A stretch of 64,000 nucleotides of DNA from assembly GCA_013178285.1 (NCBI GenBank), contig JABLXD010000001.1:124001-188000 (forward strand), written 5' to 3'. Of the stretch, positions 35,968-42,925 are shown one piece after another. Source of the stretch: Methanofastidiosum sp. GTDB lineage: Archaea > Methanobacteriota_B > Thermococci > Methanofastidiosales > Methanofastidiosaceae. The notes under the pieces were generated by a model. It had not been told where the DNA came from. It did not search any database and worked only from the letters and a program-made list of their open reading frames with translations. The first letter of the stretch is position 1, and each line of letters starts with the position of its first letter. Made by a program: the position numbers and the translations under genes.

Positions 35968-37104
35968 TTACTTGTTCCTATATTTAATTGTCAAAAAATC
36001 CCATGTTTCTCCTTTAGATCCACCAGTAACAAGTATATTGTTTTCCGAATCTATTGCAATCCCATTTGCTTGTGATATTCTACCATTATCGTATATCTTT
36101 TCCCAGAGAAGTGTGCCTTTAGTGTCATATTTTAAAGTTATAAATCCATAATTTATTTCATTGATTTGTGTTATTCCAGTGACTAAAATATTATCGTTTT
36201 TATCAATTGTGATATCATAGGCTCTATCGTAATTGCTTTTTTCATATATTTTTTCCCATAGAATATTTCCTTCAGAATTTGATTTTACTGTATAGATTTT
36301 ATATTTATCTTTAGCCATCACAAATCCGGTTACAATAATATTGTCCTTGGAATCAATGCCTACAGAGAATGCTTCGGCATATGGCTCAGAGGTGCCCCAT
36401 TTGCCATGCCACAATTTGTTGCCATCTTTATCATACTTAAATGTGTAAAATGTATAATCGCCACGCCCTCTATGTTCTTTACCGTTACTAGAAAATCCTG
36501 TTACAATAATATTATCTTTTGAATCTACTGCAATCCCATAAGGAACGTCGTCTTCACCATTGGTCCACATGACTTTCCATAGCATGTTACCATCGTTATC
36601 ATATTTAATTGTGTAATAATTATATACTATCACTTTTGTCCTACCTGTAACAATAATGTTATTCTTTGAATCTACTGCAACGTCATATGCAATATCGTCG
36701 TTTCCTCTATTTGGAGAATCATTCCAAATCACCTCTCCATTTTTATCATATTTTATTATGAAATATTTCCCACTTGCAGTTCCTACGGTAATAATATTGT
36801 CCATCGAATCTACTGCAATGCCATATGATTCGTCCCTAATGCCAACATTGAATCTTTGTTCCCAAGCCACGTCTCCATTTTTATCATACTTGATTGTATA
36901 AAAATCTCGATCTCTTCTAATTATATCTCGGGATGTTCCTGTGACTATTACATTGTCCTTTGAATCTATTACAGTTGCATATGCCATTTCATCTAATCCG
37001 CCATCGTATCTTTGTTCCCAGATAATATCTCTAAATTGGCCAAAAACTGGAGCTAAGGTTATTATAAAAACAATAAATGTTGCAATAAAGTATCTTTTTC
37101 TCAT
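35968..37104 (-). CDS. Secreted repeat protein, SBBP-type beta-propeller
   Basis: About 378 residues: signal peptide (1-21, ending VFG) and seven or more repeats of about 45-50 residues with the pattern VDSKDNIIVTG...YTIKYDKDGN..W (for example AVDSMDNIITVGTAS, VDSKNNIIVTGRTK). This pattern is typical of SBBP propeller repeats. It lacks a C-terminal anchor. The longer frame reaches 37239, but the ATG at 37104 has GGTGG nine bases before it and gives a clear signal peptide. A relative of similar design lies at 60477-61583. Function unknown. Confidence 0.75.
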   Translation of the reverse strand: MRKRYFIATFIVFIITLAPVFGQFRDIIWEQRYDGGLDEMAYATVIDSKDNVIVTGTSRDIIRRDRDFYTIKYDKNGDVAWEQRFNVGIRDESYGIAVDSMDNIITVGTASGKYFIIKYDKNGEVIWNDSPNRGNDDIAYDVAVDSKNNIIVTGRTKVIVYNYYTIKYDNDGNMLWKVMWTNGEDDVPYGIAVDSKDNIIVTGFSSNGKEHRGRGDYTFYTFKYDKDGNKLWHGKWGTSEPYAEAFSVGIDSKDNIIVTGFVMAKDKYKIYTVKSNSEGNILWEKIYEKSNYDRAYDITIDKNDNILVTGITQINEINYGFITLKYDTKGTLLWEKIYDNGRISQANGIAIDSENNILVTGGSKGETWDFLTIKYRNK

Positions 37105-37225
37105 AGGACCACCAAGGTATAAAAACAACATAAAACGCATATATAAGATTTTTGCCGAATAGAGTATTACGCCGATATTAAGACATTTGAAAAGCCTTAT
37201 AAATCGAGTTCTTTTCCCATTTCCA

Positions 37226-39403
37226 ATGAATACTCTCATACTAACAGAAAAACCAAATGTAGCAGAAAAAATTGCAAACTTTCTTGGAAATGCAAAGAAA
37301 AACCAGTATGAGGGTGTAAAATACTATGAAGTTGAAGAAGGTGGCAATAAAGTATACGTTGTCTCTGCAGTTGGCCATCTTTACAAGTTACGACAGAGAA
37401 CTCCGATAAGAGACTATCCATTTTTTGATGTGGAGTGGGTTGAAACATTCAAGAACAGTAAGAAAAGTAAATATGTAGAACCCTATGTAAGGCTTATCGA
37501 AGAGATATCAAAGGAAATGGACACATTTGTAAATGCATGTGACTATGATATTGAGGGTTCAGTTATAGGCCATAACGCACTTGTCTATGGTGCAAAGACA
37601 GATATCTCAAAATCATTTAGGATGAAGTTCTCATCGTTAACAAAGGATGAGATTATATCCGCCTATGAGAATCTAAATCCTCCGGATTACCCAATGATAA
37701 ACGCTGGTCTTGCAAGACACATCCTTGACTGGTACTATGGTATAAACACTTCGAAGGCGATGACAGAGTCTTTGAAAAAAGTTTCTGGGAGGTATGTAAC
37801 ACTTTCAGCAGGACGAGTCCAGACGCCAACTTTGAAGTTTCTACTAGAAAGGGAAAAAGAAATTTATCAGTTCGTATCAGAGCCATACTGGATTTTATTT
37901 ATTGAATTCAAAAAAGATGGTATTTCAGTAAAAGCATCTTACCAAAAGGAATTCTTCGATGAAAATGAAGCTTTGTCAATTTTTAAAGACATTAAGAATA
38001 AACCTGCTTTAGTAAAGGAGATATCAAAGAAAGAAAAAAGGATTAATCCACCGCACCCATTTGACCTAGGTACCTTGCAAAAGGAAGCCTACAAGAACTT
38101 TAGCTATTTACCAAAAAGAACTCAAGACATTGCACAGTCGCTTTACGAGGCGGGGTTAATTTCCTACCCAAGAACATCATCCCAAAAATACCCCTCTAGT
38201 CTCAATTTACGAGGAATAATGGAGAAGTTAAAGAAAATAGAAGAATACTCCAGCCATTGTGAAGAGCTAATGAAGACAAATCTAATTCCAACTGAAGGTA
38301 AAAAAGATGACCCTGCACATCCTGCAATCCACCCAACAGGGGAATTGCCTAAAAAACTAAAAGACGATCAGTCAAATCTCTATGATCTTATAGTCAAGCG
38401 ATTCTTAGCTGTCTTTGGAAAGCCTTACGTTTACGAGTCGATTTCAGTTGAGATGGATGTAAACGGCCATTCATTTTTTGCAAGTGGAAGAGTTGGTATT
38501 GACCCCGGATTTTTGAAATACTACGGCGATTATTCTGGTGTTGAAGAGGTATTGCTTCCTGAGCTAACGCAAGGAGAGATGCTAGAAAAGATTTCCCCAA
38601 AGAAGGAAGAAAAGGCAACTAAGCCTCCTGCACGTTATAACCCTGCTTCAGCAGTATCTGAGATGGAAAAACTAGGGATTGGAACAAAAGCGACAAGGGC
38701 CAATATAGTTGATATTTTGTATGATAGGAACTATATTGATGGTCGGCAGATAATTGTTACTGACCTTGGTGAAGGTATAGTTGGAACTCTAGAAAAGTAC
38801 TGCCCAGATATCGTGTCAGTAGAACTAACAAAGCATTTCGAAGAGCAGATGGAAAAGATTCAGGATAACGAAATCACAAAAGAAGAGATACTTTCCGAGG
38901 CAAAGGAAAAACTTACCGATATCTTCACTAAGTTCAAAGAAAATGAAGAAGATGTTGGTAAAGAGCTCCTAGTTTACCTTGAAAGAGAGGAGAGAAGGAG
39001 GAACTATGTTGGAATCTGTCCGATTTGTGGTGAAGGAGAGCTTTTCATTAGAAGTGGAAGATTTGGCCCCTTCATAGCATGCCAGCGATACCCAGAGTGT
39101 AACGCAACATTTTCTCTTCCAAGTAACTGCCTTGTTACCCCAACAGAGGACAAATGTAAGATCTGTGGATTTCCTGTTGTTATAGCAACAAGAAAGAGAT
39201 CCAGACCTCAAACAGTCTGTATAAATCAAGAGTGCCCCTCAAAGAATAATTATTCTGCTCCTATGGAAGGAAAAAAATGCCCAAGGTGTGGGGAAAATCT
39301 TGTTATAAAGAAATCATTCTACGGCCCATTTATCGGATGTTCTAGTTACCCCAAGTGCAGGTACACAGAAAAGATTTTAGAAGAAAAGGTAGAAGAAAAA
39401 TAG
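37226..39403 (+). CDS. topA: DNA topoisomerase I (type IA)
   Basis: 725 residues. The Toprim domain starts at TLILTEKPNVAEKIANFL, with DYDIEGSVIG (acidic residues); the active-site tyrosine lies in GLISYPRTSSQ; the domain continues with LGIGTKATRANIVDIL and DLGEGI. Three C-terminal zinc-finger units follow, each with two pairs of cysteines (CPICGEGELF...ACQRYPEC, CKICGFP...CINQEC, CPRCGENLV...CSSYPKC). It relaxes negative supercoils. The longer frame to 37187 is ignored; the ATG at 37226 gives the standard N terminus. Confidence 0.96.
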   Translation: MNTLILTEKPNVAEKIANFLGNAKKNQYEGVKYYEVEEGGNKVYVVSAVGHLYKLRQRTPIRDYPFFDVEWVETFKNSKKSKYVEPYVRLIEEISKEMDTFVNACDYDIEGSVIGHNALVYGAKTDISKSFRMKFSSLTKDEIISAYENLNPPDYPMINAGLARHILDWYYGINTSKAMTESLKKVSGRYVTLSAGRVQTPTLKFLLEREKEIYQFVSEPYWILFIEFKKDGISVKASYQKEFFDENEALSIFKDIKNKPALVKEISKKEKRINPPHPFDLGTLQKEAYKNFSYLPKRTQDIAQSLYEAGLISYPRTSSQKYPSSLNLRGIMEKLKKIEEYSSHCEELMKTNLIPTEGKKDDPAHPAIHPTGELPKKLKDDQSNLYDLIVKRFLAVFGKPYVYESISVEMDVNGHSFFASGRVGIDPGFLKYYGDYSGVEEVLLPELTQGEMLEKISPKKEEKATKPPARYNPASAVSEMEKLGIGTKATRANIVDILYDRNYIDGRQIIVTDLGEGIVGTLEKYCPDIVSVELTKHFEEQMEKIQDNEITKEEILSEAKEKLTDIFTKFKENEEDVGKELLVYLEREERRRNYVGICPICGEGELFIRSGRFGPFIACQRYPECNATFSLPSNCLVTPTEDKCKICGFPVVIATRKRSRPQTVCINQECPSKNNYSAPMEGKKCPRCGENLVIKKSFYGPFIGCSSYPKCRYTEKILEEKVEEK

Positions 39404-39482: not shown

Positions 39483-40844
39483 ATGAAGATATTAAAAACT
39501 CCACATCACGATCTTGTTTTTGCTGAGTTTTCTGATCTTCCTGAGACGACGGGTACGGTCTACTTTAGAACTGATATTAATGGACCTCCTGGCCCTTCAG
39601 TTAGAATGGAGCAAGCAGTTGACACAATCTGTGAGCTAAGAAAACATCAGGAACCTGGATCAAACATTCTTGTAATAGCTCATGCCTCAAAGGCAGAGAA
39701 ATCAATTGAAGATAATTTTAGTGAACTAAAGGCAGAAGTTGAAAATAGTAAGGTGAAAACAGCTCTTCCCCTAAAAAATATATTCTTTGCAAGGGATATG
39801 GAAGAACTTAGAAAATTAAACGAGTCTAATAAGGACTCAATTGTATTCTTGGAAAACGTTAGAAAGATCTGCGGTGATGAGCTTGTGCCACCAACTGACT
39901 CTACTCAGACTGAATTTTGGCAGTACTTCACGAAGTATACAAAGATAAATGGGGCCCTTTCCTGCTGCCACAGGGATGCTCTTTCTCTCAGGCTTTTTGC
40001 TGATGGCTGTTACTGCAATAACAGTTTCTTAAGTGAACTTTATGATATAACTCAACTCTATACCGACACAAGCGAACTAAAAATGTGGGGAGTGGCAGGT
40101 GCAAAGTCAGAAAAACTTGATGCTATTAGACTTACAGAAGGAAGAGATGACCTTATGGTGGTCCTTGATGGTGGGCCTGTATTTGTTTTACTCTTGTGGG
40201 CACTTTCTCAAAAGGCACCTTCACTAAAGAGGACGCTCCCAACGTCAATTGGAAAAGAGAACACTGAATTAATAGAAAAGTTCTACAAGAAAAACTGGGA
40301 CAAGGTAAAAGAAAACGCACTTGAAATAGCAAAAAAGATCGACAACGGCTCCATCAGTATGATATTACCAATTGATGTCAATATCAAAAAATCTGATGGC
40401 ACGACAAAGACGGTAAATCTAAAGGATATTGGAGAAGGAAAGTTTGAATCTATAGGCCCAAACAGCATTACAATGATTGGGAACATGGCCGCAAAGAGGA
40501 TATTCCTCCAGAACGGATCCTGGGAGCAGAGAGAGAATCTTGATTGCTGCAAGGCAGAATCAACAACAAACAGCTTCTGCAAAGAAGTCCTAAACAAATC
40601 AAGCAAATTTTTCATAAATGGTGGCGACACAGTTTCAGATATAAGAACTCTTGAAAATGAGCTCAAACTTTCAAAGTACAGAGAGAAGGGAAAACTAAAG
40701 GAGCTTGCAGTTGGTGGATTTGTCGTACACTGGTGGAAGTACCTCTACCACGGAAAGTATGTTCCTCACGGTGTAAACTATGCAGAGATAGGAAGCTTTA
40801 GGACCCTCTACATGAAAAAGAAGGAGCAAAGGGGTTTTAACTGA
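39483..40844 (+). CDS. Divergent phosphoglycerate-kinase-like protein
   Basis: 453 residues. PGK landmarks can be followed but many are altered: R-T-D-I-N (29-33) stands where PGK has R-V-D-F-N; AHASKAEKS replaces SHLGRPKG (the Arg is lost); FLENVRKICGDE fits LLENVR; GALSCCHRDALS replaces DAF..AHR; GVAGAKSEKLDAI fits GGAKVSDKI; ILPIDVN fits ILPVD; FFINGGDTVSDI fits the final GGGDTV motif. The ATP-site glycine motifs remain while substrate-site arginines are replaced, so it could be a PGK with changed substrate or a regulatory paralogue. It is longer than typical PGK (about 400-415), with many cysteines. AGGGAGAAC lies just before the ATG. Whether a canonical pgk exists elsewhere in the genome is not known from here. 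Confidence 0.65.
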   Translation: MKILKTPHHDLVFAEFSDLPETTGTVYFRTDINGPPGPSVRMEQAVDTICELRKHQEPGSNILVIAHASKAEKSIEDNFSELKAEVENSKVKTALPLKNIFFARDMEELRKLNESNKDSIVFLENVRKICGDELVPPTDSTQTEFWQYFTKYTKINGALSCCHRDALSLRLFADGCYCNNSFLSELYDITQLYTDTSELKMWGVAGAKSEKLDAIRLTEGRDDLMVVLDGGPVFVLLLWALSQKAPSLKRTLPTSIGKENTELIEKFYKKNWDKVKENALEIAKKIDNGSISMILPIDVNIKKSDGTTKTVNLKDIGEGKFESIGPNSITMIGNMAAKRIFLQNGSWEQRENLDCCKAESTTNSFCKEVLNKSSKFFINGGDTVSDIRTLENELKLSKYREKGKLKELAVGGFVVHWWKYLYHGKYVPHGVNYAEIGSFRTLYMKKKEQRGFN

Positions 40845-41746: not shown

Positions 41747-42925
41747 ATGTACCTTACTAAGGAAGAAGAGCGTATTCTGGAAGGTAAAGAAGGGTATGCC
41801 GCACAAAAATCTATGGAGATCCTAGCTTCTTTGGGAGATATTTATGGTGCTGATAAACTTATCCCTGTTTCATCATGCCAGATAGCTGGAGCTTCTTACA
41901 AGACTATAGGTGATGCTGGACTTTTCTTTGTATCAGAGTTTTCTAAGAGCTCTAAGGTAAAGGTAAAATCAACATTGAATCCAATAGGAATGGACTCAAC
42001 AGAATGGCAGCGAATGGGGATAAAAAAAGAGTTTGCAGAAAAGCAACTTGAGATCCTTGATGCTTATCTAAAGATGGGAATAGACTGTAGCTGTACATGT
42101 ACCCCTTATTTGATTGGAAATAGACCCGATTGCGGGGAGCATGTTGCATGGAGTGAATCCTCTGCGGTATCATTTGTAAACTCCGTCCTTGGTGCAAAAA
42201 GCAATAGGGAGGGGGGACCATCCTCTCTTGCTTCTAGTATAATAGGGAAGACCCCAAACTATGGGCTACATCTCGAAGAAAATAGAAAGGCGGGAGTAAT
42301 AATTGATGTTAAAGCCCAAATCAGATCATATTCTGATGTTGGTGCTCTGGGAAATTACGTTGGTTCAATTATTGGAAGTAAGATCCCTTACTTTAAGAAT
42401 TTAGAGCTGGACTCTGACAAGCTAAAGTCACTTGGCGCCACTATGGCGGCCTCTGGCTCAGTAGCCTTATACCATGTTGAAGGATTGACACCAGAGTATA
42501 ACAAAGCGATAGCTGATAATCTAGAAAAAATAGAAGTCGGCAAAGAAGAGATAGAGGAAAGTAAATGCAAATTAAACTCTTCTGACGATATGGAACTTAT
42601 ATGCATAGGTTGTCCTCACTGCTCTGTTGGAGAGGTAACAGAGGCCTTGGAGATTTTCAAAAAAGAGGGAAGAAAATTCAAAGGGGACATATGGATATGC
42701 ACTTCAAGGTATGTAAAAAATGAGCTTGAAAGAACTGGAGTTGCGCAAGAAATAGAAAAGTATGCTAAGCTTTTAGCAGATACATGCATGGTTGTAACAC
42801 CTATTGAAGAGATGTACCAAAAAACAGCGACTAATTCTGGAAAAGCGGCAATTTACCTTCCTTCTCTCTGTAAACAAAAGGTAAGATTTGGAGATTTAGG
42901 ATCCTTAATAAGGGACTTCAAATAA
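41747..42925 (+). CDS. Aconitase-X large subunit, probable phosphomevalonate dehydratase
   Basis: 392 residues of the DUF521/aconitase X family. The sequence starts MYLTKEEERILEGKEG and contains IPVSSCQIAGASYKTIGDAG (Cys likely cluster-related), CSCTCTPYLIGN and a C-terminal GCPHCSVGEVTEALEI. In archaea the large subunit (this) and a small subunit (DUF126) form phosphomevalonate dehydratase, which makes trans-anhydromevalonate 5-phosphate for isoprenoid synthesis. The downstream decarboxylase candidate is the UbiD at 14.3 kb. The small subunit is not in the window. An alternative is a hydroxyproline/other dehydratase, less likely in a methanogen-type archaeon. Confidence 0.8.
   Translation: MYLTKEEERILEGKEGYAAQKSMEILASLGDIYGADKLIPVSSCQIAGASYKTIGDAGLFFVSEFSKSSKVKVKSTLNPIGMDSTEWQRMGIKKEFAEKQLEILDAYLKMGIDCSCTCTPYLIGNRPDCGEHVAWSESSAVSFVNSVLGAKSNREGGPSSLASSIIGKTPNYGLHLEENRKAGVIIDVKAQIRSYSDVGALGNYVGSIIGSKIPYFKNLELDSDKLKSLGATMAASGSVALYHVEGLTPEYNKAIADNLEKIEVGKEEIEESKCKLNSSDDMELICIGCPHCSVGEVTEALEIFKKEGRKFKGDIWICTSRYVKNELERTGVAQEIEKYAKLLADTCMVVTPIEEMYQKTATNSGKAAIYLPSLCKQKVRFGDLGSLIRDFK

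Follow-up and report, generated by a model that had tools for sequence, protein, structure and literature searches.

The window analysed here is a stretch of 64,000 nucleotides from a draft genome of Methanofastidiosum sp. (contig JABLXD010000001.1, forward strand), a member of the methanogenic, little-known archaeal order Methanofastidiosales; the genome, termed G000 below, comprises 2.12 Mb in 102 contigs and is 97% complete. At its centre of interest lies an open reading frame that starts with ATG, stops with TGA and encodes 453 amino acids:

39483..40844, plus strand: PGK-like protein of 453 aa, very probably a phosphoglycerate kinase (PGK) in the divergent form that Methanofastidiosales carry (open reading frame, PF00162, orthologue alignment and purifying selection)

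Within the genus, the gene has conserved neighbours, topA upstream and aconitase X downstream, and none of its neighbours is a glycolytic gene. When six window proteins were compared with the relatives' loci, only the PGK-like protein was matched outside the genus (where the flanks are about 1.5 kb or less), so that the neighbourhood yields no functional hint; likewise, a promoter and terminator scan around the gene returned nothing useful. The aconitase X gene (41747-42925, plus strand) matches PF04412 with 502.6 bits, and we take archaeal aconitase X proteins to be the large subunit of phosphomevalonate dehydratase. On the minus strand, positions 35968-37239 hold an open reading frame of 423 amino acids composed of repeats that read TIKYDKNGD...AVDSKDNIIVTG or similar.

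The open reading frame is real and, with a similarity far beyond chance, its product is a PGK homologue. The Pfam model PF00162 (curated cut-off 27 bits) matches it with 58.4 bits (E 8.2e-16), residues 25-393 aligning to profile positions 10-359 of 379; the match thus passes the cut-off and spans both domains. All 11 full-length orthologues match the same model separately (E <= 0.01). A profile built from these 11 sequences (alignment A1) retrieves six PGK chains from the PDB, with E values from 1.7e-8 to 3.7e-6 and 2cun_A as the best match (E 1.7e-8); the two remaining entries stand at E 0.16 and E 1, and PGKs alone are found below 0.16. Comparison of the family profile with 20 Thermococcales PGKs gives a probability of 96.4 (local) or 97.7 (global). 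Other approaches were less informative: NCBIfam models do not match the protein, a PDB search with the single sequence returned nothing at E <= 1, viral contigs searched for PGKs to enrich the alignment contained none, and an AlphaFold2 model based on a six-row alignment (A2) of close sequences reached a pLDDT of 37.5 and a pTM of 0.31, too low to interpret.

To our knowledge, PGK is a nearly universal and slowly evolving enzyme. The sequence-only reading had described the protein as a divergent member of this family and had proposed an alignment with archaeal PGKs; the divergence is borne out. Mean identity is 63.8% within the PGK-like family, 21.8% (range 18.9-24.8%) between the family and 20 Thermococcales PGKs, with the ligand residues mostly kept, and 17.4% (range 15.9-19.3%) between the family and E. 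coli Pgk; canonical PGKs share 39.1% across the archaeal/bacterial split, as measured between Thermococcales and E. coli. By these values the PGK-like protein is about half as similar to canonical PGKs as archaeal and bacterial PGKs are to each other, and the split of its class from other PGKs is much deeper than that between the archaeal and bacterial canonical enzymes. In a tree of 11 Methanofastidiosales proteins, 20 Thermococcales proteins and E. coli Pgk, the distance from the Methanofastidiosales ancestor to the Thermococcales ancestor is 3.08 substitutions per site, compared with 1.60 from the latter to E. coli; with just these three groups, the tree gives a long branch and not a branching position. 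The protein very probably forms a long-branch, lineage-specific class of PGK. Its deep split from other PGKs, set beside its good conservation within the order, suggests an old burst of change that was followed by constraint.

The PGK transition state involves R38, K215 and K219 together with the amides of G373 and G396 (available part of PMC5594045; human numbering here and below, these residues and R65 and G166 being placed according to the available parts of PMC6040698 and PMC5594045). In human PGK1, R38M lowers kcat/KM by eight orders of magnitude, and R65W has a kcat of 23.7 per second compared with 89.8 for the wild type (available part of PMC6040698). The motifs quoted in the sequence-only reading are all present in the window protein, at residues 66-71 (AHASKA), 157-164 (GALSCCHR), 205-211 (AGAKSEK), 294-298 (ILPID) and 380-387 (GGDTVSDI). 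In the following, we take R21, D23, N25, H62, R122, H169 and R170 to be further ligand positions and NGPxGxFE to be the adenosine-binding loop. The counterparts found are:

39567..39581, plus strand: RTDIN (residues 29-33), matching R21-x-D23-x-N25; R29, D31 and N33 unchanged in all 11 aligned orthologues
39603..39605, plus strand: R41, matching the transition-state residue R38
39678..39695, plus strand: AHASKA (66-71); H67 matches H62 and is invariant in 11 of 11, K70 occupies the R65 position
39849..39866, plus strand: LENVRK (123-128); R127 matches R122, invariant in 11 of 11
39951..39974, plus strand: GALSCCHR (157-164); C162, H163 and R164 invariant, H163-R164 matching the substrate-site pair H169-R170
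40002..40016, plus strand: DGCYC (174-178), whose invariant C176 and C178 might bind a metal jointly with C162
40095..40115, plus strand: AGAKSEK (205-211); K208 matches K215 and K211 matches K219 via a one-residue deletion, both lysines invariant
40506..40526, plus strand: LQNGSWE (342-348), which by alignment takes the place of the NGPxGxFE adenosine-binding loop, apparently in shortened form
40617..40643, plus strand: NGGDTVSDI (379-387), at the position of the GGGD(S/T) phosphate loop; N379, G380, G381, D382 and T383 invariant
40710..40718, plus strand: VGG (410-412), in the place of the C-terminal TGGGA turn; both glycines (G411, G412) invariant

The basic patch for 3-phosphoglycerate (3PG), composed of R21, D23, N25, R38, H62, R65, R122, H169 and R170, is identical at eight of nine positions in the window protein, with R65 replaced by K. 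Across the family, seven of these residues are invariant in 11/11 sequences, R38 is R or K, and R65 is K, I or D. More precisely, the 15 orthologues that cover R41 have R at the R38 position in 11 cases and K in four (G012, G014, G015 and G017, from two families), and the R65 position (residue 70) is K in eight of 15, I in four and D in three. The partial loss of 3PG-binding arginines that had been proposed from the sequence therefore does not hold: in the window protein, the R65 position alone is changed. Lysine is also found there in 15 of the 20 canonical Thermococcales PGKs (THQSKP in 11, THQGKP in four), and 2cun itself reads THQGKP, so AHASKA differs little from what is usual in archaea. 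The substrate pocket is nevertheless changed in its surroundings, as had been noted: D and F of the canonical DAFGTAHR are both substituted, and S or P stands at the G166 position of the 11 aligned orthologues (Ala in 17 of 20 Thermococcales rows, those matched by the motif search). The transition-state residues can all be located (R41, K208, K211, the GGDT loop and G411-G412). The ATP-site features remain in AGAKSEK, GGDTVSDI and ILPID, as proposed, with the qualification that the adenosine loop appears altered: in this family it aligns as NGS(W/V)E, three residues shorter than NGPxGxFE with the gap placed by alignment rather than structure; here, Q343, G345, S346 and E348 are invariant in the 11 orthologues and N344 is kept in ten. 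The cysteines, of which many extra ones had been noted, number nine and are for the most part not invariant: only C162, C176 and C178 are invariant in 11/11 aligned orthologues, and the same three are kept in the three contig-cut orthologues that cover them (G009, G012 and G017). As aligned, the substrate rim is remodelled, in that the R65 position is free to vary and R38 is exchanged conservatively (R or K); the protein further has an adenosine loop that looks shorter, and three conserved cysteines.

C162 immediately precedes the substrate H-R pair, and C162, C176 and C178 might have a metal or redox role. One could picture a PGK class of its own whose active site is rewired: a metal or Fe-S centre held by the three cysteines would partly replace R65 in anion binding, and the adenosine loop, being shorter, would alter the preference for the nucleotide or phosphoryl donor; we regard this elaboration as rather unlikely.

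Orthologues of the PGK-like protein are present in 15 of the 21 Methanofastidiosales genomes that make up our order set, G000 included. Eleven are full length, the other ten being 51-94% identical to the window protein, and four are cut by contig ends (G006, G009, G012 and G017). None was found in the remaining six genomes (G004, G008, G011, G016, G019 and G020), which gave no match to the family profile even at E <= 10 in a search run without a positive control; five of these are 76-88% complete, and only G011 exceeds 90%. In G004 and G008, which belong to the same genus as G000, the upstream neighbour topA is missing as well, although it is present in 4/4 other same-genus genomes tested, and the locus is therefore probably unassembled there. 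Across a phylum set of 115 genomes, strong matches to the family profile occur solely in the 15 orthologue-bearing genomes, and nine Thermococcales give weak ones (E 4.6e-5 to 8.3e-4). A short-peptide scan of genome contigs, which reaches close relatives only, returned six loci labelled Methanofastidiosum, Methanofastidiosia or Euryarchaeota archaeon, and a search of plasmids for the protein gave no match. Purifying selection on the gene is strong, with dN/dS ratios of 0.025-0.078 in five same-genus pairs, values that are approximate because dS is 1.2-2.1. A title-level literature search, the coverage of which does not extend to the founding genome paper (Nobu et al. 2016), returned no description of the protein; the available part of PMC7302380 does not mention glycolysis, gluconeogenesis, the Embden pathway, phosphoglycerate or pgk, and that of PMC7509429 names both the genus and PGK, though in passages that have no bearing on each other.

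The sequence-only reading had pointed to a second, canonical pgk in the genome as a check, its absence being one half of what would make this protein a diverged but normal PGK, and no such gene was found. A PF00162 genome search detected a canonical PGK in 20/20 Thermococcales (361-399 bits), with 14/14 controls above the cut-off, and in 0/21 Methanofastidiosales genomes, where the weaker matches above the cut-off (32.7-61.6 bits) coincide with loci of the PGK-like family. The same search left the window protein unreported in its own genome and might thus also overlook a second PGK that has diverged as far; a protein search of G000 placed the PGK-like protein at one site only. The surrounding steps are well represented in G000, namely archaeal GAPDH-II (464 bits, same contig, C1:101148-102137), enolase (623 bits), apgM (512 bits), TIM (119.5 bits) and the FBP aldolase/phosphatase (616 bits), and with all five present the pathway needs a PGK. 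GAPDH-II acts on 1,3-bisphosphoglycerate, the product that PGK forms from 3PG. As far as these searches go, PGK is the only step of this stretch without a canonical gene in G000, and the PGK-like protein is the sole candidate found. The fit is imperfect in two genomes of family f3. G014 carries the PGK-like gene and has no GAPDH-II match (a weak PF02800 match falls in an open reading frame that we take, by eye, for aspartate-semialdehyde dehydrogenase), and G011 has no recognisable PGK of either kind by PF00162 or the family profile. In G011, a TIM gene is directly followed by a bacterial-type GAPDH gene (locus L070, 8001-9657, on G011:C8).

We consider it very probable that the PGK-like protein is the sole, functional and highly divergent gluconeogenic PGK of Methanofastidiosales. 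It would phosphorylate 3PG with ATP to 1,3-bisphosphoglycerate, which archaeal GAPDH-II would then reduce to glyceraldehyde 3-phosphate during gluconeogenesis, with the reverse direction applying if glycolysis runs; the catalytic activity, 3PG and ATP as substrates and the direction of flux are what we infer for it. Support comes from homology over both domains, the retention of nearly all ligand and catalytic residues, selection, the lack of any other recognisable PGK and the presence of the flanking pathway steps. The points that count against it are the mean identity of 17-22% to canonical PGKs, the K at the R38 position in 4/15 orthologues in view of the defect of human R38M, the shortened-looking adenosine loop, the misfit of family f3, the non-glycolytic neighbours and the low pLDDT.

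The sequence-only reading had raised a new phosphoryl transferase or a pseudo-enzyme, and neither fares well against catalytic and ligand residues of which almost all are invariant, strong purifying selection and a pathway that needs PGK. The first would be a phosphotransferase of PGK fold acting on a new acyl-phosphate or carboxylate substrate, with the PGK step carried out by an unrelated, unrecognised enzyme. Such a change of substrate could account for the altered pocket (K, I or D at the R65 position, K for R38 in two families, S or P at the G166 position and the changed D and F of DAFGTAHR) and for the occurrence of the protein in G014 without GAPDH-II. However, it requires two events, loss of PGK and gain of an analogue, where one suffices; the residues that are kept are those that touch 3PG and the transferred phosphoryl group; GAPDH-II, by established pathway knowledge, uses 1,3-bisphosphoglycerate and hence needs PGK; and K at R65 and Ala at G166 occur in most canonical Thermococcales PGKs. 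A new substrate is thus possible and not favoured, and we consider this account unlikely. A pseudo-enzyme descended from PGK and serving in regulation or structure would be in keeping with the low similarity to canonical PGKs and with the replacement of R38 by K in some orthologues, but four families that share about 50% identity overall show no variation in the catalytic lysines, the phosphate loops and the residues of the basic patch, and G000 has no other PGK that we could find; with the purifying selection, this invariance led us to reject it as the main reading, and we hold it to be very improbable. That a canonical PGK was simply missed, the PGK-like protein being a paralogue, draws on the draft state of the assembly (102 contigs, 97% complete) and on the failure of the PF00162 genome search to report even the window protein in G000, yet it is hardly credible, as the gene would then have escaped notice in every one of the 21 genomes of the order, ten of which have a completeness of 90% or more and a contamination of 5% or less, in a search that was positive in every Thermococcales genome and every control.

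As the only recognisable PGK of the order, the protein would, if active, close the gluconeogenic pathway of Methanofastidiosales. With R65 replaced, and R38 as well in two families, it would then also show, as an experiment of nature, which residues a PGK really requires. Should it use another substrate or nucleotide, a textbook enzyme family would gain a new branch. In either case, annotation pipelines can overlook this form, which has no NCBIfam match and was passed over by the PF00162 search of its own genome.

Among known systems, the PGK-like protein resembles the Thermococcales PGK (PDB 2cun) in the order of its motifs, in RxDxN, H62, LENxR, xHR, the first ATP-site lysine and the GG phosphate loops, and, as in most Thermococcales, in carrying lysine where R65 would stand. 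Thermococcales PGKs (loci L026-L045) read GGGHS and not GGGD(S/T) in 20/20 cases, and GGAKVxDS, without a second ATP-site lysine at the usual spacing, also in 20/20. Compared with them, the PGK-like protein is about 40 amino acids longer, has AGAK-SEK in place of GGAKVxD, GGDT in place of GGGHS, NGS-E in place of NGPMGVFE and VGGFVV in place of TGGGA, and, unlike them, carries three invariant cysteines. With E. coli Pgk it shares the ligand motifs, among them the second ATP-site lysine, for which Thermococcales have a serine, whereas R65 and the DAFGTAHR and NGPVGVFE motifs of the bacterial enzyme are altered.
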